Shown: positions 7,687 through 56,201 of the stretch, one piece after another
Position numbering within the stretch: position 1 is the first letter of the stretch
Layout: the number at the start of each line of letters is the position of its first letter
NCBI RefSeq assembly: GCF_002000545.1
Contig: NZ_MLHL01000006.1
Span: 62,001-126,000 of the forward strand
DNA length: 64,000 nucleotides
Source: Rodentibacter trehalosifermentans
GTDB lineage: Bacteria; Pseudomonadota; Gammaproteobacteria; Enterobacterales; Pasteurellaceae
Reading direction: 5' to 3'
The notes under the pieces: model-generated
Told to the model about the DNA's origin: nothing
The model's database searches: none
What the model saw: only the letters and a program-made list of their open reading frames with translations
Position numbers and translations under genes: made by a program

Positions 7687-8163
7687 ATGTATAAATTAGA
7701 CGCAAATGAACAAACTATCTTAAATCAGGCGAAAGCAATTTTGACGAAAATAATGGAGAATACTCCAATATATCGTTCTGAAAAACAATTAACTGCACCG
7801 GAAATGATCGCGTTTCACTTCCAAACCCTAATAGGTTATGAAGAAAGAGAAATGTGTGCGGTGTTGTTTTTAGATCGTAGTCATCGTTTGGTTAAAGCTG
7901 AAATATTGTTTCAGGGTGATGTGACCTCTGTATCAATATCACCTCGTGAAATCATTAAGCGGGCATTACAGCTAAACGCGGTTTCAATTGTAATTGGGCA
8001 CAATCATCCATCCGGAGATGTGGTACCCAGTTATCAAGACCAGAAGTTTACAGAGGGAATGATGAGAGCCTGTAGATTAATGGAAGTGAATTTACTTGAT
8101 CACATCATTGTATCCGGTAGTGAATACTACAGTTTTTCAGAAAATAGCTTACTGATAGATTAG
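7687..8163 (+). CDS. RadC-like JAB/MPN domain protein
   Basis: A 158-residue protein with the RadC (DUF2466) JAB metalloprotease-like domain. EMCAVLFLDRSHRLVKAEILFQG leads to the zinc motif GHNHPSGD (about residue 104-111) with a downstream D in LLDHIIVSG, and SFSENSLL near the end is typical of the family. The N-terminal helix-hairpin-helix part of chromosomal RadC is missing, as usual for plasmid and ICE copies, which tend to lie beside antirestriction genes. Their function is unsettled. It has its own leader cassette. Confidence 0.92.
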   Translation: MYKLDANEQTILNQAKAILTKIMENTPIYRSEKQLTAPEMIAFHFQTLIGYEEREMCAVLFLDRSHRLVKAEILFQGDVTSVSISPREIIKRALQLNAVSIVIGHNHPSGDVVPSYQDQKFTEGMMRACRLMEVNLLDHIIVSGSEYYSFSENSLLID

Positions 8164-37563: not shown

Positions 37564-37615
37564 CCTTTATTCATAACGAATTTTGACCGCACTTTTTAAG
37601 TTCGGGCGAATTTTT

Positions 37616-37672
37616 ACCCTGATGGGAACAGTTCCCATCGGGAGGCTGTTCCCTTTATTTTGGAGAACAGCC
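37616..37672 (+). promoter_or_regulatory. Leader L11: hairpin / anti-Shine-Dalgarno switch
   Basis: CCC.GATGGGAA / TTCCCATC.GGG hairpin with GGGAACAG (37624-37631), complementary to CTGTTCCC (37646-37653). GGCTGTTC of the same arm is perfectly complementary over 8 bases to GAACAGCC (37665-37672) immediately before the ATG. Confidence 0.75.
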
Positions 37673-38611
37673 ATGAAAAAACAAACTCAACCTAAAGATT
37701 TATACCAACAAATCACTGATCAAATTGTGGAAGGCCTAGAACAAGGTACGATGCCTTGGCAGAAACCTTGGGATAGCGGTTGGCCACAAATGGCTATTCC
37801 ATGTAACGGTGAAAGTGGACGTCAATATTCCGGTATTAATGTCTTACTGCTATGGATGAGTGCAATCCGGAAAGGTTTTACCCAACGCAAGTGGGTAACC
37901 TTCCAGGGGGCAAACCATCTAGGTGGGCAAGTCCGAACCGGTGAGAAAAGTACCGTCATCATCTTCTACAAACAAAATCTGTTTGAAGAAAAAGATGATT
38001 CCGGCAATGTTATCTTCGATGAAAACGGTGAACCGAAAATGAAATCTTCAGTGTTCATTCGCGGTCATCATGTGTTCAATATTGAGCAGTGTGATGGGCT
38101 AGAAGAATACTATGAAGATTTTCCGGCACCGGAAACTTCATCAGAGATGAGCCCACGCCCGGATTTAGACGTGTTACCTGCTAAAATGGGGATTCCGCTA
38201 TATAACAAAGCACAAGACAGGGCTTGTTATATGCCAAAACGGGATTGCATTGTGATGCCGGATTTTGAAAAGTTTCACTCTGCCGATGATTACTATGCCA
38301 CATTACTACATGAATGTGGCCACGCAACCGGGCATAAAGACCGGTTGAATCGAGAGGGGATTGTCAATTTTGATAAATTTGGTTCTGAACGTTACGCCTT
38401 TGAAGAATTAATTGCTGAACTGACCAGCGCATTTACTTGTGCGCATATGAATGTTTGCAATAACATTTCGCAAAATGCGGCGTATATCGATCATTGGATT
38501 CAAGCATTGAAATCTGATAAAAAAGCGATTTTTCGTGCCTCATCACAGGCACGGGAAGCAACGCAATATTTGATTGATAAATTCAATCAAGAAACGCGTC
38601 TTGCTGCTTAA
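37673..38611 (+). CDS. ArdC-type antirestriction protein (ssDNA-binding domain plus zincin)
   Basis: A 312-residue protein. The N-terminal domain (DLYQQITDQIVEGLEQGTMPWQKPW ... GRQYSGINVLLLW) is the ArdC N-terminal single-strand DNA-binding fold; the C-terminal part has the zincin motif LLHECGHATGHKDRLNR followed by YAFEELIAELTSAF with the third ligand Glu. ArdC proteins of plasmids protect incoming single-stranded DNA against restriction. The ATG at 37673 is set by GGAGAACAGCC; the longer frame runs through the leader. Ends at an inverted uptake-signal terminator. Confidence 0.94.
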   Translation: MKKQTQPKDLYQQITDQIVEGLEQGTMPWQKPWDSGWPQMAIPCNGESGRQYSGINVLLLWMSAIRKGFTQRKWVTFQGANHLGGQVRTGEKSTVIIFYKQNLFEEKDDSGNVIFDENGEPKMKSSVFIRGHHVFNIEQCDGLEEYYEDFPAPETSSEMSPRPDLDVLPAKMGIPLYNKAQDRACYMPKRDCIVMPDFEKFHSADDYYATLLHECGHATGHKDRLNREGIVNFDKFGSERYAFEELIAELTSAFTCAHMNVCNNISQNAAYIDHWIQALKSDKKAIFRASSQAREATQYLIDKFNQETRLAA

Positions 38612-38758: not shown

Positions 38759-39193
38759 ATGTCGATTGCTTATGCATCAGATTTATATGGTTGGGCAAAT
38801 GAACAGGCTCGCTATTTAAGCCTTGGTGCCTTTGACCAAGTAGATATAAAACATTTAACAGAGGAATTGGAAACGATGGGGAATTCCGAATTGTCTGAGT
38901 TGGAAAGTCGATTAGAATTGCTGATTATGCACCTACTAAAGTGGCAATATCAGCCTAACCGTCAAGGACGTAGCTGGTTACTGACTATCAAGGAGCAACG
39001 AACTCGGATTGAAAGACGTCTGAAACGTTCCCCTTCCCTGAAATCCAAACTCAATGGTGAAGGATTCTTACAGGATATTTGGGAATTAGCCGTTTTGTCA
39101 GCGGCAAGAGAAACCGGGCTTGATGAAAATAACTTTCCTGAAATACCAAGTTGGACATTGGATGATATATTAAATCCTCAATTCCTACCATAA
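38759..39193 (+). CDS. DUF29 family protein
   Basis: A 144-residue protein with the DUF29 pattern: DLYGWANEQARYLSLGAFDQVDIKHLTEELETMGNSELSELESRLELLIMHLLKWQYQP, then RSWLLTIKEQRTRIERRLKRSPSL. Function of the family unknown; frequent in cyanobacteria and mobile elements. AGGAGGT ribosome binding site, 7 bases before ATG. Unlike its neighbours it has no hairpin leader but its own promoter with palindromic sites. Confidence 0.9.
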   Translation: MSIAYASDLYGWANEQARYLSLGAFDQVDIKHLTEELETMGNSELSELESRLELLIMHLLKWQYQPNRQGRSWLLTIKEQRTRIERRLKRSPSLKSKLNGEGFLQDIWELAVLSAARETGLDENNFPEIPSWTLDDILNPQFLP

Positions 39194-39297: not shown

Positions 39298-40056
39298 ATG
39301 GATTTTGAACAAAAATTTACCGCACTTTTTAAATCAATTGCACCTCATTACCGGCGTTCTGAAGTGTTCTATGACTTTATAACGATTTTGGGACTTGAGT
39401 TTTATCTTGTTTTGTATGGTGAGTCAGCGGATGAAACGCTGAAACAGCGTTATCAGACGGCGGTAGGTCACTACACAGATGAGGAAAAGCAAAAGTTAGT
39501 TGAGCTGAGTGTGATTGTTGTAGAAGCCCTTGAAAACAAGACCTATGATTTTTTAGGTTCAGTGTTTATGGGCTTAGAGCTCGGCGATAGATATAAAGCA
39601 CAGCATTTCACCCCCGGTTACGTTGCGCAGGCAATGGCCACAATGACACTATCCAATTGTCATGAGTTAATTCAACGACGTGGATTTATCCGATTGCAAG
39701 AGCCGACCTGTGGCTCCGGTGTGATGATTATTGAAGCATATAATTATTTACGCCAGGAAGCATTTAATCCTCAACAACAGATGTGGGTACAAGCTCGAGA
39801 TTTGGATTTTACCGCTGCGATGATGTGTTATATTCAGATGACTCTTTTACACATACCGGGCGAAGTGATAATTGGGGATACCCTAAAAAATGAGGTTCAT
39901 CATCATTTATACACAACCGCTCATCTATGGGGGAACTGGGACAATAAATTAGCATGCGCAGATTTAGATACTGAACCAGAAATTCAACAAATTGAATCTG
40001 AACCAGTAGAAGAATTACCTGAAATTGATTGGGAAAGTGAACCGATGTTTTATTAA
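39298..40056 (+). CDS. N6-adenine methylase-like protein lacking the NPP(Y/F) motif
   Basis: A 252-residue protein. GDRYKAQHFTPGYVAQAMATMTL and LQEPTCGSGVMIIEAYNYLRQ are the helix and the SAM-binding motif I of HsdM/N6-methylases; ARDLDFTAAMMCYIQMTLLHIPGEVIIGDTL follows as in that family. The catalytic NPPY/NPPF motif expected after GDTL is absent, and the protein ends with an acidic tail (TEPEIQQIESEPVEELPEIDWESEP). So it may bind SAM or DNA without methylating, perhaps to interfere with restriction. Leader cassette; ends at a terminator. Confidence 0.82.
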   Translation: MDFEQKFTALFKSIAPHYRRSEVFYDFITILGLEFYLVLYGESADETLKQRYQTAVGHYTDEEKQKLVELSVIVVEALENKTYDFLGSVFMGLELGDRYKAQHFTPGYVAQAMATMTLSNCHELIQRRGFIRLQEPTCGSGVMIIEAYNYLRQEAFNPQQQMWVQARDLDFTAAMMCYIQMTLLHIPGEVIIGDTLKNEVHHHLYTTAHLWGNWDNKLACADLDTEPEIQQIESEPVEELPEIDWESEPMFY

Positions 40057-41682: not shown

Positions 41683-41904
41683 CTACCTTGGTGAGGTTTT
41701 ATCTATTATCTCTTTTAATTTATTTTCTAATTCTTTTCTCTGGTTATTCTTCTGTAAGGTCATAGTAAAAACAATAATCTGTATTATTAAAGTAGATAAT
41801 GCTATATAGGTATATACATTAATTCCTTCTTTTATGAAGTTTAGTATTAATGCTATAAAAAGCATTGTTATTGTCATTAAAGTAAAAATTGTTGTATTTT
41901 TCAT
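41683..41904 (-). CDS. Small two-helix membrane protein next to rdgC
   Basis: A 73-residue protein: two hydrophobic helices (about 5-23 and 28-50) and a charged helical tail (NNQRKELENKLKEIIDK). Its first base overlaps the end of rdgC by one position, so it is co-transcribed. Function unknown; small size leaves some doubt. Confidence 0.6.
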   Translation of the reverse strand: MKNTTIFTLMTITMLFIALILNFIKEGINVYTYIALSTLIIQIIVFTMTLQKNNQRKELENKLKEIIDKTSPR

Positions 41905-42815
41905 TATTGTTCTCTCTTTTTTTCACCGCCAAATTCATTCAATAAATATTGAGTTAATTTGGCAAGAATTCCTGTCATTAGTACAAAATCTGCATCAAAA
42001 CGTTGAGCAAAATCCTCTTTCAAAATGTCATCATTTTTTTCTAACACAACATCGGCAAATCTTAAGCGTTTAAGCGTGCAATCTTCATGAATGACAAAAT
42101 TCAAGTGGTCTTCCCAATCTAAAGAGAGTTTTGTGACGGTTTTTCCCTTCTGGAAATGAGAGAGCATTTCCTCATTTTCAAGCGGTTGCTTTTTACAACG
42201 AATTACACTGTCTTCTTGACTGCCACGCAATTCTGCTTCATCCAACATAGTCAACCAATCAGGTAAGCTATTTTGTGTAATCCAATTTGTTAAAACAGTG
42301 CTTGGTTCATTAGTAAAAGCAAGCGGCACAACAGGTAGTGAACCTAACGATTTACGCAGCAACGCCAAGGAATCTTCCGCACTTTTATTTGATGTGGCAT
42401 CTACATAAATAAGGTTATTTTCCGTATCAATCCATAATGCAGTATGTTGGTTTCTACTGAATGCACGAGGCAATAAATTCATCACTACATCATCTTTTAA
42501 GGCTTGCTTTTCAGTTTTTTTCAGTTTGCGGTTTTCTTTTTGCTCCAGGCTTTTAATACGTTTCTCCAATTCTTGGTTTACTACATTTGCCGGTAGCATT
42601 TTTTCTTCCTTGTTTGCCGTCAATAAAATCTGCTTTCCTACGGAAAAATACAGTAAATTTGAATCTCGCAACGGTGAAACCCAACCAAATTTACTCATAT
42701 CTAGCGCACCGCAAGGAACATAAGCACAATCGTTCAGTTGATTTTGTAATTGTGTTAAATCCCAATTAAGAGATTTTGTTAAACGATAAATAATTGCATT
42801 TTTAAACCAAAACAT
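41904..42815 (-). CDS. rdgC: Recombination-associated protein RdgC
   Basis: A 303-residue protein with the typical start MFWFKNAIIYRLTKSLNWD, the motif GWVSPL, and VVNQELEKRIKSLEQKENRKLKKTEKQALKD (helical part) and ALWIDTENNLIYVDATSNKSAEDSLALLRKSLGSLPVVPL. RdgC forms DNA-encircling rings and limits RecA-dependent recombination in enterobacteria. Length matches the chromosomal family (about 300). Inside an ICE accessory region it may modulate recombination of the incoming or excised element. The gene could also be a chromosomal copy captured by the element. Confidence 0.95.
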   Translation of the reverse strand: MFWFKNAIIYRLTKSLNWDLTQLQNQLNDCAYVPCGALDMSKFGWVSPLRDSNLLYFSVGKQILLTANKEEKMLPANVVNQELEKRIKSLEQKENRKLKKTEKQALKDDVVMNLLPRAFSRNQHTALWIDTENNLIYVDATSNKSAEDSLALLRKSLGSLPVVPLAFTNEPSTVLTNWITQNSLPDWLTMLDEAELRGSQEDSVIRCKKQPLENEEMLSHFQKGKTVTKLSLDWEDHLNFVIHEDCTLKRLRFADVVLEKNDDILKEDFAQRFDADFVLMTGILAKLTQYLLNEFGGEKKREQ

Positions 42816-43359: not shown

Positions 43360-43474
43360 AGGAAAAAGCCAAGGGAGGCCCTATCGGGCCAAGGGGAAAT
43401 TTTCAAGGGTAAATCCGTTTCCAGGGGAAACGGGCTTACCCGAAAAGGCAAAAGGGCTAAAGAGCCTTTTTCCT
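43360..43474 (+). other. Multi-helix structured element with two exclusive 3' pairings
   Basis: Outer stem AGGAAAAAG (43360-43368) with CTTTTTCCT (43466-43474). Inside: GGCCC/GGGCC (43377-43390), and GGGTAA (43407-43412) / TTACCC (43436-43441) enclosing CCGTTTCC/GGAAACGG (43415-43433). AAAAGGC (43443-43449) can instead pair with GCCTTTT (43464-43470) as a terminator. The last two pairings share the same 3' strand, as in attenuators. It lies between a secreted-protein gene and the convergent PIN gene. Confidence 0.55.
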
Positions 43475-43934
43475 ATACCTCACTAGACATCATCTCGTCA
43501 TATAGTGATAAAATGTTAGGTATATCTCCATCATTTGATGATATATCTAACTTAAAACATTTCGCCGTAGCAACATACATGGTATCAAAATTATATTTAT
43601 CTAAACGTTTTTCTGTTCCATCAGATTTTGGTTGATAGCGTTTAGAATGTTTTTCTTTCTCATGTCTAAAAATATTGGTCGCTATATCTGTAATCGCCTT
43701 ATCAATGTTAATAATTTCCAGTCCGGATAAAAATTTTTCTGCTTTCTCATATTCCGCCTTACTTTCTTTGGAATAATCATAAAATCGTAAAACTTCATGT
43801 CGAATTAATGGCGTAGTAAAGAAAATAACATCACCAAATTTATATTGTTGTTTAAACCATTCAATATCGTTAGGATTACCTTTTAGAATATTAATGATTT
43901 TATTGGTATCTAATAAGATTTTCTTCATATCCAT
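43473..43934 (-). CDS. PIN-domain nuclease (effector of an ATPase-PIN pair)
   Basis: A 153-residue protein. ILLDTNKIINILKGN gives the first acidic residue and the PIN start, HEVLRFYDY a Glu, and KYNFDTMYVATAKCF the later Asp of the catalytic set; together these are the VapC-like PIN pattern. It begins 2 bases after the stop of the ATPase gene, so the pair is one operon. PIN proteins cut RNA; joined to an ATPase sensor this suggests an abortive-infection type system. Confidence 0.82.
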   Translation of the reverse strand: MDMKKILLDTNKIINILKGNPNDIEWFKQQYKFGDVIFFTTPLIRHEVLRFYDYSKESKAEYEKAEKFLSGLEIINIDKAITDIATNIFRHEKEKHSKRYQPKSDGTEKRLDKYNFDTMYVATAKCFKLDISSNDGDIPNILSLYDEMMSSEV

Positions 43935-43936
43935 AC

Positions 43937-45066
43937 CTAATTAGTTATTCCTAGAGTATCAAATAAATTATTTTGTTGTTTTTCAGAACGTTCGGATTGA
44001 ATGTTATCTAGTTTAATTTTATTCAAATTGACGTTAAATGCAGTAGAGAGTAAATCAACAAATGCCTCATTACTTGGGTTGGAAATTTCTTTATTTTTAA
44101 CAATGCCATTTTCATTAACTAATTGATATGCTTTACCGTTGTATAACTGAGATAATACTAATGACGAATGCGTAGCAACAATAAAGACGGTATTAGGGAA
44201 GATTTTATTAAGTATAGGCAATATCCTTGTTTGCCAACTAATATGTAAATGACTTTCAATTTCATCAATTAACACAACGCCTATTTCATTTTCAATATCC
44301 GTTGAATTTGTGAAAAATGAATAACCTGATACTATGGATTGTACGATTCTAATTAAGGAGGTAAACCCGGTGCTGAGTTCTTTTAAATTTCTTTTTTGAC
44401 CATCTATCGTAAATTCAACAGAGTTTCCACCCGGTATGGAAAAAGATCTTTTATCGTTACTAATGCGTTCATCAATTTTATTTAAAATATTAAGAACGGA
44501 TAGTAGCTCAATCTCTCTATTATCAATTCCAGTTTGGTATTCATTAGTAGACATGGCTCGTTGAATAAACCATTCTGTAATAGAAGTATTATTAGGATTA
44601 TTCATGTTTTTATATATATTTTCAAAATACTCTCTTTTTCTTTCTTGATATTTTCCCAAGGGTTTTATACTTTCAATGTTTTTATCATTAATATATCCTC
44701 TTTCTTGTGCTGGAATATAGATAATAGGAAAGGATACAATCTTCTTGATTTTGTCAAATTCATTATAGGAATTTTTTTATGAGGCTCATCTTTCCAAAAG
44801 GAAAGATTATCAATTTTTGCTTTTTCAAATACTAGTTTTGGTTTTATTTCATGAAAAAGAACACTATCTTTAAGAAAGTATTGGTCATTTGAAAATAATA
44901 AGGATTGATATAAGCATTCTAATGCTTTTGTTTTACCAACCCCATTATTACCAATAAAAACATTTATTTTACTATTTGGGTCAAGATTAATAGATAATCG
45001 TTCAATTCCTTTTACTCCCCAAAACTCATAGGTTGAAGGAATTTTATTTACTTTTAGGTTGCTCAT
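43937..45066 (-). pseudogene. AAA-family ATPase, frameshifted in a 7-base homopolymer
   Basis: Two frames together encode an OLD/AAA_21-like ATPase of about 376 residues. The first part (45066 to 44665) has Walker A FIGNNGVGKTKALE; the second (to 43937) has FTSLIRIVQSI, Walker B VVLIDEIESHLH and IVATHSSLVLSQL. Between them a run of seven A (plus strand T, 44772-44778) is one base short: adding one A gives the continuous reading KKIVSFPIIYIPAQERGY ... SIKPLGKYQERK, with the YIPAQER block usual in such ATPases. So it is a pseudogene, a phase-variable gene, or an assembly error. Operonic with the PIN gene. Confidence 0.85.
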
Positions 45067-45161: not shown

Positions 45162-45265
45162 GATTAGTATAAAAAAATCAAAATGAAATTGCATTAACTT
45201 TCTGCTTTACCTCATTATTGCGTTCTTGTTGTAATAGGCAAAATATTAACAGGCTATCATCAAAA

Positions 45266-47242
45266 ATGCTCAAAAAGCTCATCACCGCATTGCGTATAAC
45301 GCCCCCTCAAAAAACACAGACTGAGAAAAATACATCTATTTCTAAAGGGTGGAACAAGCCATTATCTGCTTCAGAACTACTTAATACACCTCTAAGAGAA
45401 CGGTATTTAACTGATATTTGGCAGAATGTATCCATGACTCCCAAAATGTTTGATACGCTTTATCGTAAGCCAATAGAGCGGTATGCCGAAATTGTTCAAT
45501 TACTTCCTGCATCAGAAAGTCATCATCATGCCCATAATGGGGGGATGCTTGATCATGGATTGGAAGTATTGTCTATTGCTGCAAAATTAAGACAAAATTA
45601 TGTTCTACCGCCAAACTCTCCTCCCGAAGAACAAGCTAAACAAAGAGATGTATGGACTGCTGTTGTCATTTATGCAGCATTATTACATGACCTAGGGAAA
45701 ACAGCGGTCGATGTCGAAGTTATTTTAGAAGATCAAAGACGTTGGTTTCCTTGGCAAGGGAAAATAGATAGCCCATATCGTTTCCGTTATATTAAATCCC
45801 GAGATTATTCACTTCATCCTGTCATAGGGGGGGTATTTGCACAGCAATTTATTCCTCAAGAAGCATTGGATTGGTTAGCTGAATTTCCGGTAGCTTTTTC
45901 CACATTAATGTACTTTATTAGTGGACATTCAGATAAAGCCGGTGTTTTAGCAGATATTATTCAAAAAGCAGATCAAATTAGCGTGACAATGGCACTTGGT
46001 GGAGATATTCAAAAAATTGGAGAAAAAGCACCGGTTTCTTTTGCGAAACAGTTACATATCGCATTGAAAGAAGTTATCAGCAATATGAAACTTAATGCGC
46101 CTAAAGGTGGCGGGGAAGGATGGCTAACCAATGAAGGGCTATGGGTGTTAAGCAAAAGTACAACGGATAAAGTCAGAGCTTATTTAATGCAACAAGGTAT
46201 CTCTGTTCCGGCTCAAAATAGCCGTGTATTTGATGAATTACAGGCACATAAATTAATTGAAGCAACGCCTGAAAATACAGCGATATGGTATGGAAAAATT
46301 GCCTCTAACAGTGGATGGCAGCCATCTGCTCCATTTACATTACTCAAGATATCTCCCAATGTTATATGGGAAGGCATTGATAGTCGCCCACCTTTATTTG
46401 ATGGACTTGTCACAGTAACGGATAAAGAAGGTAACAATAAAATACAAGATGTTTCATTAGGAATTAATGAGACAACTGAAATATTGAGTAAAAATCATGA
46501 TGAAACCAGTAATGAGTTTTTGTTGAGTGATATTAATATCACACCAGATATTACATTAAATACTGGCACAAATGATAACAATATAAAACCTGAATCAGAA
46601 TCTGATCCATTTGGCTCTTACTTAGACTTATTTCCCACACTGGGTGAAAATAGTTCATCAGTGACGTTATCTTCCCATGAATCCGATAATATAAGTATTG
46701 AAACAGTAGAAGAACAATTATCTGAAACAGAGCAGGGTATAACATTGTTGAAAGAGGAAATAAGTAGCGTAGGGAGTGAGCAAAAGCCAAAAAGTCAAAA
46801 AAGTCCTATTTCAGAAGTAAAAATTAAGAACAAGGTAATAGACAGTGGCGACTTATTAACAACTGAAAAATTTATCAAATGGGTAAAAGAGGGTATTATA
46901 GCTAAGTCCATTCACATTAATAAACCTGATGCAAAATTGCATTTTGTGGAAAACCACTTGTTTATGGTTACACCGGCTATATTTCAGTTATATACACGAG
47001 AGAAGTTGGGGAGTGATAAGCAAGAGGATTGGGAATTCCTACAAAAAGAATTTCAAGATTTAGGTATCCATAAACGCTTCTATGCTGATGGAGACTCTTG
47101 GAACATCTGGTCTTGTGATGTGGTTGGGCAGAAAAAAACATCTTTATTGAGTGGATATCTTATTGAAGATGTAAAACTCTTTGTCGGAAATAAACCGGTA
47201 TTCAATAATCACTGGTTAAAACTAAAAGGAAATATTCAATGA
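45266..47242 (+). CDS. traI: MobH-family relaxase (TraI_2 type)
   Basis: A 658-residue relaxase. The N-terminal HD-hydrolase-like TraI_2 domain carries YAEIVQLLPASESHHHAHNGGMLDHGLEVLSIAAKLR (histidine cluster HHHAH and the GGMLDHGLEV motif) and ALLHDLGKTAVDVEV with the HD pair. A long low-complexity linker (about 400-540) leads to the C-terminal TraI_2_C domain (LTTEKFIKWVKEGIIAKSIHINKPDAKLHFVENHLFMVTPAIFQLY). This relaxase nicks the element at oriT and leads the strand into the coupling protein. The ATG at 45266 starts MLKKLITALRI; ribosome binding site weak. Its stop overlaps the integrase ATG. Confidence 0.95.
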   Translation: MLKKLITALRITPPQKTQTEKNTSISKGWNKPLSASELLNTPLRERYLTDIWQNVSMTPKMFDTLYRKPIERYAEIVQLLPASESHHHAHNGGMLDHGLEVLSIAAKLRQNYVLPPNSPPEEQAKQRDVWTAVVIYAALLHDLGKTAVDVEVILEDQRRWFPWQGKIDSPYRFRYIKSRDYSLHPVIGGVFAQQFIPQEALDWLAEFPVAFSTLMYFISGHSDKAGVLADIIQKADQISVTMALGGDIQKIGEKAPVSFAKQLHIALKEVISNMKLNAPKGGGEGWLTNEGLWVLSKSTTDKVRAYLMQQGISVPAQNSRVFDELQAHKLIEATPENTAIWYGKIASNSGWQPSAPFTLLKISPNVIWEGIDSRPPLFDGLVTVTDKEGNNKIQDVSLGINETTEILSKNHDETSNEFLLSDINITPDITLNTGTNDNNIKPESESDPFGSYLDLFPTLGENSSSVTLSSHESDNISIETVEEQLSETEQGITLLKEEISSVGSEQKPKSQKSPISEVKIKNKVIDSGDLLTTEKFIKWVKEGIIAKSIHINKPDAKLHFVENHLFMVTPAIFQLYTREKLGSDKQEDWEFLQKEFQDLGIHKRFYADGDSWNIWSCDVVGQKKTSLLSGYLIEDVKLFVGNKPVFNNHWLKLKGNIQ

Positions 47243-48149
47243 CAGTTTCAAATTTTGATGAATTATTAACTCAATTTTTTTATTTCGTGAATTAAGGCCC
47301 GATACAGAGAAAGCCTATCAAAAAGTCGTCAATCAGCTATTAAAGTTTTATCCTGATAAATCACCTCAAGCTCTAACAAAAGCTGATATAGTCCATTGGA
47401 GAGCTGAGGTTTTGTTTAGAATTAAGCCGGTTACATGGAATAATTATTGTCGACATTTGAAAAGCCTTTATAACTTTGCAATTGAGCAAAATTTTATAAA
47501 AAATAAGGATAACCCATTTAGAAAAATGATGGTAAGAGAAGGTAATACTTCTCGAAAAGTCTTGGATGAAACTATCTTTAGGAAGATAGATTTACTTTTC
47601 AAAAGTGAAGAAAATCTACCTTCTCGCTTAAGACCTAAGTGGTTTATTCTATGTTTGATTAATGTATTAAAATACACAGGAATTCGACGTGCTCAGCTTG
47701 TAAAGTTGAGAATCAAGGATATCAATTTATCAAGAAAAATGATTTGTATCCCATCACACATAAACAAAAATCACAAATATCACGAAATTCCTATTCCGCA
47801 GATACTTTTTAATGACTTTCAGAAGATTGCTGAGGAGTTAAGAAGAATAGGGGATGATGAAGATGCTCAATTTTTTAATGTAAATCGGTTTTCAACGACC
47901 AATTATCGCCAAGGTGAAATGATGAGTAATCATCAGCTATCTCATATTTTTTATGTATTATCTAAAGAGATTCGTTGTAAAGTATCCCCTCATCGTTTTA
48001 GACATACTTTGGCAACAAAACTGATAAAAAATAAAACGAGTATTTACGATGTAAAACGAATATTAGGGCATTCAGATTTGAAAGTGACGATGAGTTATAT
48101 TGAAGAAGACCCAGAAGATCTTCGTTCTGCATTAGATTCGGTGTATTAG
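47239..48149 (+). pseudogene. int: Tyrosine integrase, frameshifted in a T7 run
   Basis: The ATG at 47239 overlaps the relaxase stop (ATGA). The frame reads MTVSNFDELLTQFFYFVN and stops; one extra T in the run 47275-47281 restores QFFLFRELRPDTEKAYQKVV and a continuous 303-residue XerC/D-like recombinase. Catalytic residues are all present: Arg in YTGIRRAQLVKL, Lys near INKNHKYHEIPIP, HRFRH in SPHRFRHTLATKL, His in LGHSD and Tyr in TMSYIEEDP. This integrase lies next to the tRNA-Leu attachment site and is the natural candidate for integration and excision. The broken frame means inactivation, a slippage switch, or a sequence error. Confidence 0.9.
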
Positions 48150-55375: not shown

Positions 55376-56201
55376 TTATTGTGATGATGAAGAAATATGT
55401 TTCAGTGTCGGGTCATCATTGTGAATTGCTAAGATATTAATATCCATAGGAAAAAATTGATAGCCTAAAGGTGAAAGTAGATCAACAATTCCTTGATGTC
55501 CGGATTTTAGGACTTCAACAGATAGTATTGGTAAATGTTGTTTAATGGTTCTTAGCCCTCCGGTTAATGTTTCTAACTCCATTCCTTCGACATCAATTTT
55601 TAGGAAATCTAAGCGTTTAAGCTGGAGAGAATCAACAGAGATAAGAGGGATTTTTTGCGTTTTTTGATAATCGATAGGTTGACCGATAAATTCGTTATTT
55701 GTATTTTGACGTAGCTCTAAGCTACCAAAGGAAGAGGGAGTATTGTAGTCAACAATCGGTATGTCTATCATTGGCTGGCTGGCTGGCTGGCTGGCTGGCA
55801 ACGGGATTGCCGATTGCTGAATAAATTGCTTTGGCATTAAAACAGTTATTCAATGCAATGTTACCTGCAAGCGCATAATAAATACGCTCTTGGGCTTCAA
55901 TAGCGATAACTTCTCCCCATCCGGTCATTTCTATGCTCCAAGGAATGGTATGAGCACCAATATTGGCACCGCAATCCAAAGCCACGACATTATCTCCAAA
56001 ATATTTGCGACGTAAATTCAGTAAGGCTAATACATTTCGAATTTCTTTAGGATCGAAAGACCCGGTAGATAAAAATTGATAACCTACACCATATGTATGC
56101 CCGGCAAGGTTGGTTTGACGATCAAGATGATTAACGATAAGTGTGCCAAAATTAGTTGCACTAAGAACAAAAGGTTGGGGTCTATTAATGTGTTTCATCA
56201 T
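55376..56201 (-). pseudogene. Phase-variable FkbM-family methyltransferase, out of frame here
   Basis: Two frames together encode an FkbM-type SAM methyltransferase: VVALDCGANIGAHTIPWSIEMTGWGEVIAIEAQE in the first half (56201 leftwards) and LDFLKIDVEGMELETLTGGL in the second (to 55376). They are separated by a tetranucleotide tract (AGCC on the coding strand, about 6.75 units at 55773-55799). With the present number of units the first frame stops at ...NDRHTDC; removing one unit or adding two restores ASQPMIDIPIVDYN and one protein of about 273 residues. Such tracts are the standard phase-variation device of Haemophilus. Target is probably a surface glycan or other exposed molecule. Confidence 0.9.
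55773..55799 (+). repeat. Tetranucleotide (GGCT/AGCC) slippage tract
   Basis: 27 bases of GGCT repeated six times plus GGC lie inside the FkbM-type gene. The number of units sets the reading frame. Confidence 0.97.

Follow-up and report, generated by a model that had tools for sequence, protein, structure and literature searches.

The window, a stretch of 64,000 nucleotides of Rodentibacter trehalosifermentans DNA, carries a gene whose product appears to be a non-catalytic half-methyltransferase that arose from an HsdM-like adenine methylase by loss of motif IV and all that follows it. The SAM pocket is kept, a gene for ArdC lies nearby, and many relatives end in a peptide that we take to be of the kind that docks on sliding clamps. 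This last feature, unnoticed in an earlier sequence-only reading of the gene, is the most telling; new here, at the level of the family, are the clamp motif and a fusion to ArdC. The gene and its parts are as follows.

39298-40056, forward strand: half-methyltransferase-like protein (“MTL” here), an ORF with an ATG start, 252 amino acids, of the family of PHROG 5696
39298-39537, forward strand: N-terminal helical domain, residues 1-80, from the AlphaFold2 model; aligns with HsdM-type chains from residue 1
39547-39615, forward strand: DFLG block (84-87) to motif X (AQHFTP, residues 101-106), from conservation
39700-39723, forward strand: motif I, EPTCGSGV, residues 135-142, predicted to bind SAM, from conservation and the HsdM profile match
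39799-39807, forward strand: motif II acidic residues DLD (168-170), from conservation
39874-39885, forward strand: motif III, GDTL (193-196), from the HsdM profile alignment and conservation
39913-39924, forward strand: TTAH (206-209), the end of predicted strand 4 and the expected place of NPP(Y/F), from model and alignment
39952-40053, forward strand: acidic tail of lower model confidence (pLDDT block means of 48-74 for residues 221-252), ending ESEPMFY

MTL is present as a single copy in its genome (genome search). As had been read from the letters alone, motif I and the HFTP block are present and NPP(Y/F) is absent: HFTP is residues 103-106 (39604-39615), and a search for the pattern [NDS]PP[YFW] finds no occurrence anywhere in MTL. 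The same reading called the protein short and its tail acidic, as is indeed the case; the last 34 residues (219-252) include 12 acidic and no basic side chains. The Pfam N6_Mtase profile (PF02384) matches at 27.7 bits against a cut-off of 20.4, covering only positions 26-121 of its 311, and PADLOC gives weak type I/II methyltransferase matches over that same middle stretch. NCBIfam has no match for MTL, and a search of PDB sequences returns a single weak one, PacII M (E 0.11).

An AlphaFold2 model, made from an alignment of 63 sequences, has a pLDDT of 92 and a pTM of 0.86, with low confidence at residues 221-252; the helices of its N-terminal domain span residues 3-17, 20-43, 46-56, and 61-80. 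The solved structures that match it best are HsdM-type and related adenine methylases, where matches within 1 Z are regarded as tied: 8w2p_A (Z 10.8, rmsd 6.3, 223 residues aligned), CamA 7lt5_B (Z 10.6, rmsd 2.6, 117 aligned), PacII M 7vru_B (Z 10.4, rmsd 4.6, 204 aligned), 3lkd_A (Z 9.1, rmsd 4.4, 201 aligned), and M.EcoKI 2ar0_B (Z 7.1, rmsd 2.8, 94 aligned). A BsaXI chain is also among them. Because several of these alignments start at residue 1, the modeled N-terminal domain is probably HsdM-like too.

The family to which MTL belongs is large. PHROG 5696 matches residues 3-223 (profile positions 19-240 of 250, E 1.5e-59). By tblastn, relatives, all below 60% identity, are found in 2,050 of 72,556 plasmid records (1,453 predicted conjugative) and in 10 of 50,697 phage records. 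They occur in 18 of 140 Pasteurellaceae genomes, counting only matches of at least 107 bits, and divergent members are found on haloarchaeal plasmids. These relatives form a discrete family, separate from HsdM and other MTases. With a profile built from 18 members, whole-family members are short ORFs that score above 200 bits across the entire model. The ORFs of at least 446 amino acids that score below 105 bits, 28 in number and comprising HsdM and other MTases, reach 43-102 bits and match its middle only; all 28 have NPP(Y/F). Family fragments and three short ORFs left unclassified lie in between.

Counts given below refer to a first sample of 85 non-redundant bacterial or viral members, drawn from 126 complete ORFs, and to a hold-out of 68 non-redundant members, less than 75% identical to the first sample, to which the same patterns were applied. 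Excluded from the counts were family fragments of 110-157 bits (L007, L117, L151-L153), ORFs open at a contig end (L065 and L105), and, as unclassified, three short ORFs of 45-109 bits that have no NPP(Y/F) (L118, L125, L165). A haloarchaeal set holds 11 proteins, including L024 (90 bits), which was counted there and not in the first sample; because it contains close pairs (L166/L173, L169/L175, L167/L174), it amounts to about 7 independent cases.

What is missing from MTL is missing from the family. The profile-profile alignment of MTL with HsdM covers residues 81-200 and ends past motif III; the NPPF of HsdM comes about 12 residues beyond this end. Motif IV at the HsdM spacing is found in 0 of 153 non-redundant bacterial and viral members (85 plus 68). 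L062, L067, and L069 do have NPPF, 41 residues past motif III and within the tail linker, where it was judged incidental; L069 is the one non-redundant member having it, off the canonical spacing. Past residue 200, no MTL sequence can be aligned with motifs V-VIII or with the C-terminal region that contacts HsdS. Most relatives have TP(A/M/V/F)x after predicted strand 4 (T206 in 75 of 85, P207 in 72 of 85), with MTL itself having T-T in the place of T-P, and W-x-x-[RK] is conserved after motif III in most of them.

The SAM pocket, in turn, is near-invariant and under strong purifying selection. D84, G87, F104, and P106 are each found in 85 of 85 members, as are P136 and G139 of motif I, with G141 in 82; D168 of motif II is D in 81 and E in 4. 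The D of motif III is replaced by N in 60 of 85, which could weaken SAM binding. Against five Pasteurellaceae relatives, dN/dS for residues 81-200 is 0.03-0.06, with dS saturated for L006 and L143, and this is the stretch of lowest dN/dS in nearly all five comparisons; for three more distant relatives it is inestimable or 0.12. Thus, the near-invariance of motifs X, I, and II, the low dN/dS, and the absence of motif IV together point to a protein that has retained its SAM pocket and lost its catalytic half. Because the identical motif set, with the identical omission, recurs across the family, and because dN/dS is low, the pattern in MTL is more than chance. The earlier suggestion that MTL does not methylate DNA is supported by the family-wide absence of motif IV and of all later parts.

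Two explanations bear directly on these observations. MTL might still be an active methyltransferase in which TP[AMVF]x, closing strand 4, serves as an unusual motif IV, and a partner may complete the enzyme; this would make sense of the T-P and W-x-x-[RK] conserved in most relatives and of the intact pocket. It would, however, place a Thr where a catalytic Asn, Asp, or Ser belongs, in a protein with no motifs V-VIII and no target-recognition part, with no candidate second half adjacent, and, in the window copy, with no Pro either; we give it a slim chance. An orphan methylase, active alone, was set aside since motif IV is absent, as was a methylase split over a second ORF, no candidate second half being found next to MTL. 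Alternatively, the gene might be a decaying fragment of a methylase gene, as its short ORF and partial Pfam match would have it. Against decay stand the identical boundaries in bacteria, phages, and archaea and a whole-gene dN/dS of 0.05-0.14 in the five comparisons that allow an estimate. A decaying fragment was set aside on dN/dS, and is hardly credible.

The C-terminal helices of HsdM hold HsdS. MTL shares with HsdM (N6_Mtase, PF02384) the N-terminal helical domain and motifs X, I, II, and III, but has neither motifs IV-VIII nor the C-terminal part that contacts HsdS, and members of its family have about 250 residues, compared to about 500 or more in HsdM. M.EcoGIX and M.BceJIII, as described in PMC7736820, are likewise relatives of methylases encoded in early-transferred plasmid regions and tied to the entry of transferred DNA. 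They differ in being beta-class enzymes with a catalytic DPPY that methylate single-stranded DNA (PMC7736820); DPPY is absent from MTL. In a search of open-licence papers, no description was found of the MTL family as non-catalytic or clamp-bound. Automated annotation mostly calls its members “N-6 DNA methylase.” About two thousand plasmid records carry an MTL relative, mostly under that label, although its product is probably not a methylase; methylome and defence surveys that count these genes as methylases would be misled.

What these proteins might do instead is suggested by where their genes are found. MTL belongs to an integrative conjugative element whose conjugation block is of the TraC/TraD type; by gene content, we take the element to be ICEHin1056-like. 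The neighbors and landmarks needed here are these.

37583-38611, forward strand: ArdC (ArdcN plus zincin metallopeptidase), the partner gene, from Pfam; likely start near 37673
38759-39193, forward strand: DUF29 gene, between ArdC and MTL, from Pfam
45218-47242, forward strand: TraI_2 relaxase of the element, from a domain scan
47412-48149, forward strand: tyrosine integrase of the element, from a domain scan

ArdC lies 0.7 kb upstream of MTL. It is beside the family gene in 16 of 18 Pasteurellaceae loci: the window and 15 of the 17 others (L137-L153), where it lies upstream. The exceptions are L150 and L151, of which L151 sits where its contig ends. It is also upstream in L002-L007 (6 of 6), which come partly from the same genomes as L137-L153. 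Apart from the window, a DUF29 gene intervenes only in L005/L137 and L143; since it is missing in most relatives, it probably stands outside the ArdC-MTL pair. Among plasmids, ArdC and the family gene are listed for the same record in 13 cases, which come from gamma- and alphaproteobacteria. In L113 the two are one: a single 672-aa ORF joins the family domain to ArdcN and also gives a weak match to the metallopeptidase. This ORF matches PHROG 23459 over its full length (4.6e-187), and the ArdC and MTL of the window match separate halves of PHROG 23459, which is, judged by these alignments, a fusion of ArdC with the MTL family. PHROG 5696, the MTL family itself, and PHROG 23459 are both listed in the PHROG library as of “unknown function.” No fusion of the L113 type was found among the viral contigs searched.

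ArdC of R388 (PMC7213743) corresponds to the partner gene here and to the part fused to the family in PHROG 23459; it differs from MTL in fold. It is described as binding ssDNA and as countering HsdRMS in recipients (PMC7213743), and PMC5512222 treats ArdC together with full DarB-type methylase-helicase proteins. The gene had earlier been placed in a leader cassette with ArdC and RadC-like genes. ArdC is indeed close; the only RadC-like gene found lies some 31 kb upstream, at 7687-8163, so the cassette consists of ArdC only, and the argument from RadC is wrong for this locus. The proposed link to antirestriction finds genetic backing in the conserved ArdC neighbor, in the ArdC fusion, and in the psiAB, DUF932, or annotated antirestriction genes that accompany some relatives, and an antirestriction role for MTL is plausible.

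More distant relatives keep different company. Pfam domains were sought in 103 of 165 nearest-neighbor ORFs, most of those dropped being short. ArdcN was found in 1 of the 103, so that ArdC is not adjacent to most distant relatives; ParB_N was found in 6, PcfK in 5, DnaB_C in 3, DnaA in 2, and phage ssDNA-binding proteins in 2, with no single dominant partner among the 103. A primase-like neighbor is also met, and some members lie in phage replication modules. From 40 plasmids taken at even steps from the tblastn matches, 11 were examined; psiA/psiB lie upstream on the same strand in 3 (L014, L020, L021), and a ParB-family gene is in the fetched stretch in 7, neighbors that are consistent with leading-region genes. 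Plasmid leading regions are reported to be rich in methyltransferases, with orphan and putative methyltransferase families, 8 and 14 among them, enriched there (PMC11541004); these resemble the MTL family, as far as their description goes, in location and annotation.

The C-termini carry a second kind of information. Peptides of the type QL[SD]LF are the consensus for binding the beta-clamp, and the PIP box, Qxx[LIMF]xx[FWY], is the consensus for binding PCNA. Many members end in QLTLF, QLSLF, QLALF, QMALF, QLDMF, and similar sequences, which we take to be the beta-clamp consensus. A strict motif, Q[LMI].[LM]F within the last 10 residues, was noticed in the first sample, where it ends 19 of 85 members, compared to 5 of 658 ORFs on the same contigs; in the separate hold-out, the counts are 20 of 68 and 4 of 469. 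Shuffled tails would give 0.02 and 0.01. As ORF controls include spurious ORFs, the comparison was repeated with greedily called genes, of which 6 of 667 (first sample) and 3 of 409 (hold-out) have the motif. A looser motif is found in 30 of 85 members against 7 of 658 ORFs, and in 37 of 68 against 6 of 469. Thus, a clamp-type C-terminal motif is enriched in part of the family and is found in about 1% of other genes; 55 of the 85, including IncF-type plasmid members L014 and L020, do not have even the loose form. Short motifs are, of course, easily over-read.

The exceptions among the controls are themselves of a kind. All 5 motif-bearing ORFs of the first sample are PcfK-like, and each is the next gene downstream from a family member; at 4 of the 5 loci, the family protein has no motif. 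PcfK may be a clamp-binding partner. The 4 motif-bearing controls of the hold-out also lie downstream, three of them after a gap of 0-18 bp and the fourth after one of about 440 bp. The five PcfK-like genes that end in the strict motif (L054:3776-4606, L056:3910-4392, L082:3749-4432, L090:3752-4831, L098:3789-4553) often overlap the upstream family gene.

Haloarchaeal members end in QASLGAF, QVALTEW, QAGFDEF, and the like, presumably PIP boxes. A PIP-like box is found within the last 20 residues of 8 of 11 of them, compared to 2 of 91 ORFs and 0 of 85 bacterial members, and the bacterial type of clamp motif is found in 0 of the 11. A docking peptide that seems suited to the clamp of its host's domain would be hard to explain otherwise. 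Haloarchaeal L167 (3001-3735) and L174 (3001-3738) are tailless, and two genes away from each is that of a type I restriction R subunit; they possibly put the domain to a different use.

In Pasteurellaceae, the tails (NEPMFY, TEPVFY, NEVIFY, NELIFY, DEVIFY, KEIIFY) follow the pattern E-[PVIL]-[MVI]-F-Y, conserved at the terminus, with a variable linker. Neither MTL (ESEPMFY) nor its Pasteurellaceae relatives have a clamp motif of the Gln type at the C-terminus. The MTL tail would be a variant without Q, and because the Gln is absent, clamp binding by the window copy is only inferred. A likeness to the C-terminus of SSB, acidic with an aromatic end, was also considered.

The best overall explanation, with about an even chance of being right, is that MTL is a non-catalytic, SAM-binding adaptor that works with ArdC on newly replicated DNA of the element. 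Its pocket, from sequence and model, would hold SAM. Members of the family would be proteins of mobile elements that work during the establishment of incoming DNA, with MTL and ArdC, to judge from neighborhood and fusion, acting jointly. Family-wide, the adaptor would be linked to replication, its C-terminal tail or a PcfK-type neighbor binding the sliding clamp, which would be loaded as the transferred strand turns double-stranded. SAM-loaded MTL on the new duplex may then protect it against type I restriction or against surveillance of another kind. In the window copy, the acidic linker and the aromatic end are retained and the Gln is absent; this copy would bind either the clamp, by way of a weak motif, or some other replication protein. 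If the link to the clamp is true, it would be a means by which incoming DNA acts, at the fork, on a strand of its own that has just been synthesized. A more general hypothesis, tentative and more probably wrong than right, is that a clamp-riding, SAM-sensing, non-catalytic half-methyltransferase is common to bacterial and archaeal mobile elements, with a docking peptide of beta-clamp or PCNA type according to host, and that it hides or marks the freshly copied DNA of the element against restriction while ArdC keeps step on the single strand.

Two other explanations must be weighed against the adaptor. In one, MTL is a mimic of HsdM that inhibits type I restriction as a decoy, joining or blocking host HsdM, HsdS, or HsdR. 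The modeled HsdM-like fold, N-terminal domain included, speaks for this; ArdC itself acts against HsdRMS (PMC7213743), and the antirestriction genes near some plasmid relatives fit as well. But MTL has no counterpart of the region by which HsdM holds HsdS, and acting as a simple subunit decoy is therefore not the obvious mechanism. Further, members of the family occur on plasmids of haloarchaea and within phage replication modules, and a soluble decoy has no need of a clamp motif. We consider the decoy unlikely. In the other, MTL is an accessory to replication or partition, associated with clamp and DNA, that serves strand conversion, copy control, or segregation and has nothing to do with restriction. 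The clamp and PIP motifs of relatives are as expected from such a role, as are the ParB_N, PcfK, DnaB_C, DnaA, ssDNA-binding, and primase-like neighbors and the ParB genes on plasmids. Alone, however, it leaves unexplained both the near-invariant SAM pocket and the tie to ArdC, and we regard it as doubtful.

Several other features were observed in passing. An rdgC gene (41904-42815, reverse strand) lies between MTL and the relaxase, and a relative or piece of rdgC is near the family gene in L003, L142, and L143. At 43937-45066 (reverse strand), two adjacent ORFs, the larger of which was scanned, resemble one split PtuA-like AAA ATPase, and a PIN-domain gene (43473-43934) adjoins them. The element encodes a PcfJ-like protein (PF14284, 9840-11414), and a PcfJ-domain gene is also near the family gene in L018. 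Runs of PASQPASQ, as in phase-variable genes, are found in overlapping ORFs at 55376-56201 (reverse strand); this repeat also ends an HsdM-like ORF of a relative (L165). For Tn7100 of Haemophilus influenzae, a DNA methylase gene of an ICEHin1056-family element is described as cut by an insertion, with its last six bases replaced (PMC9355037).
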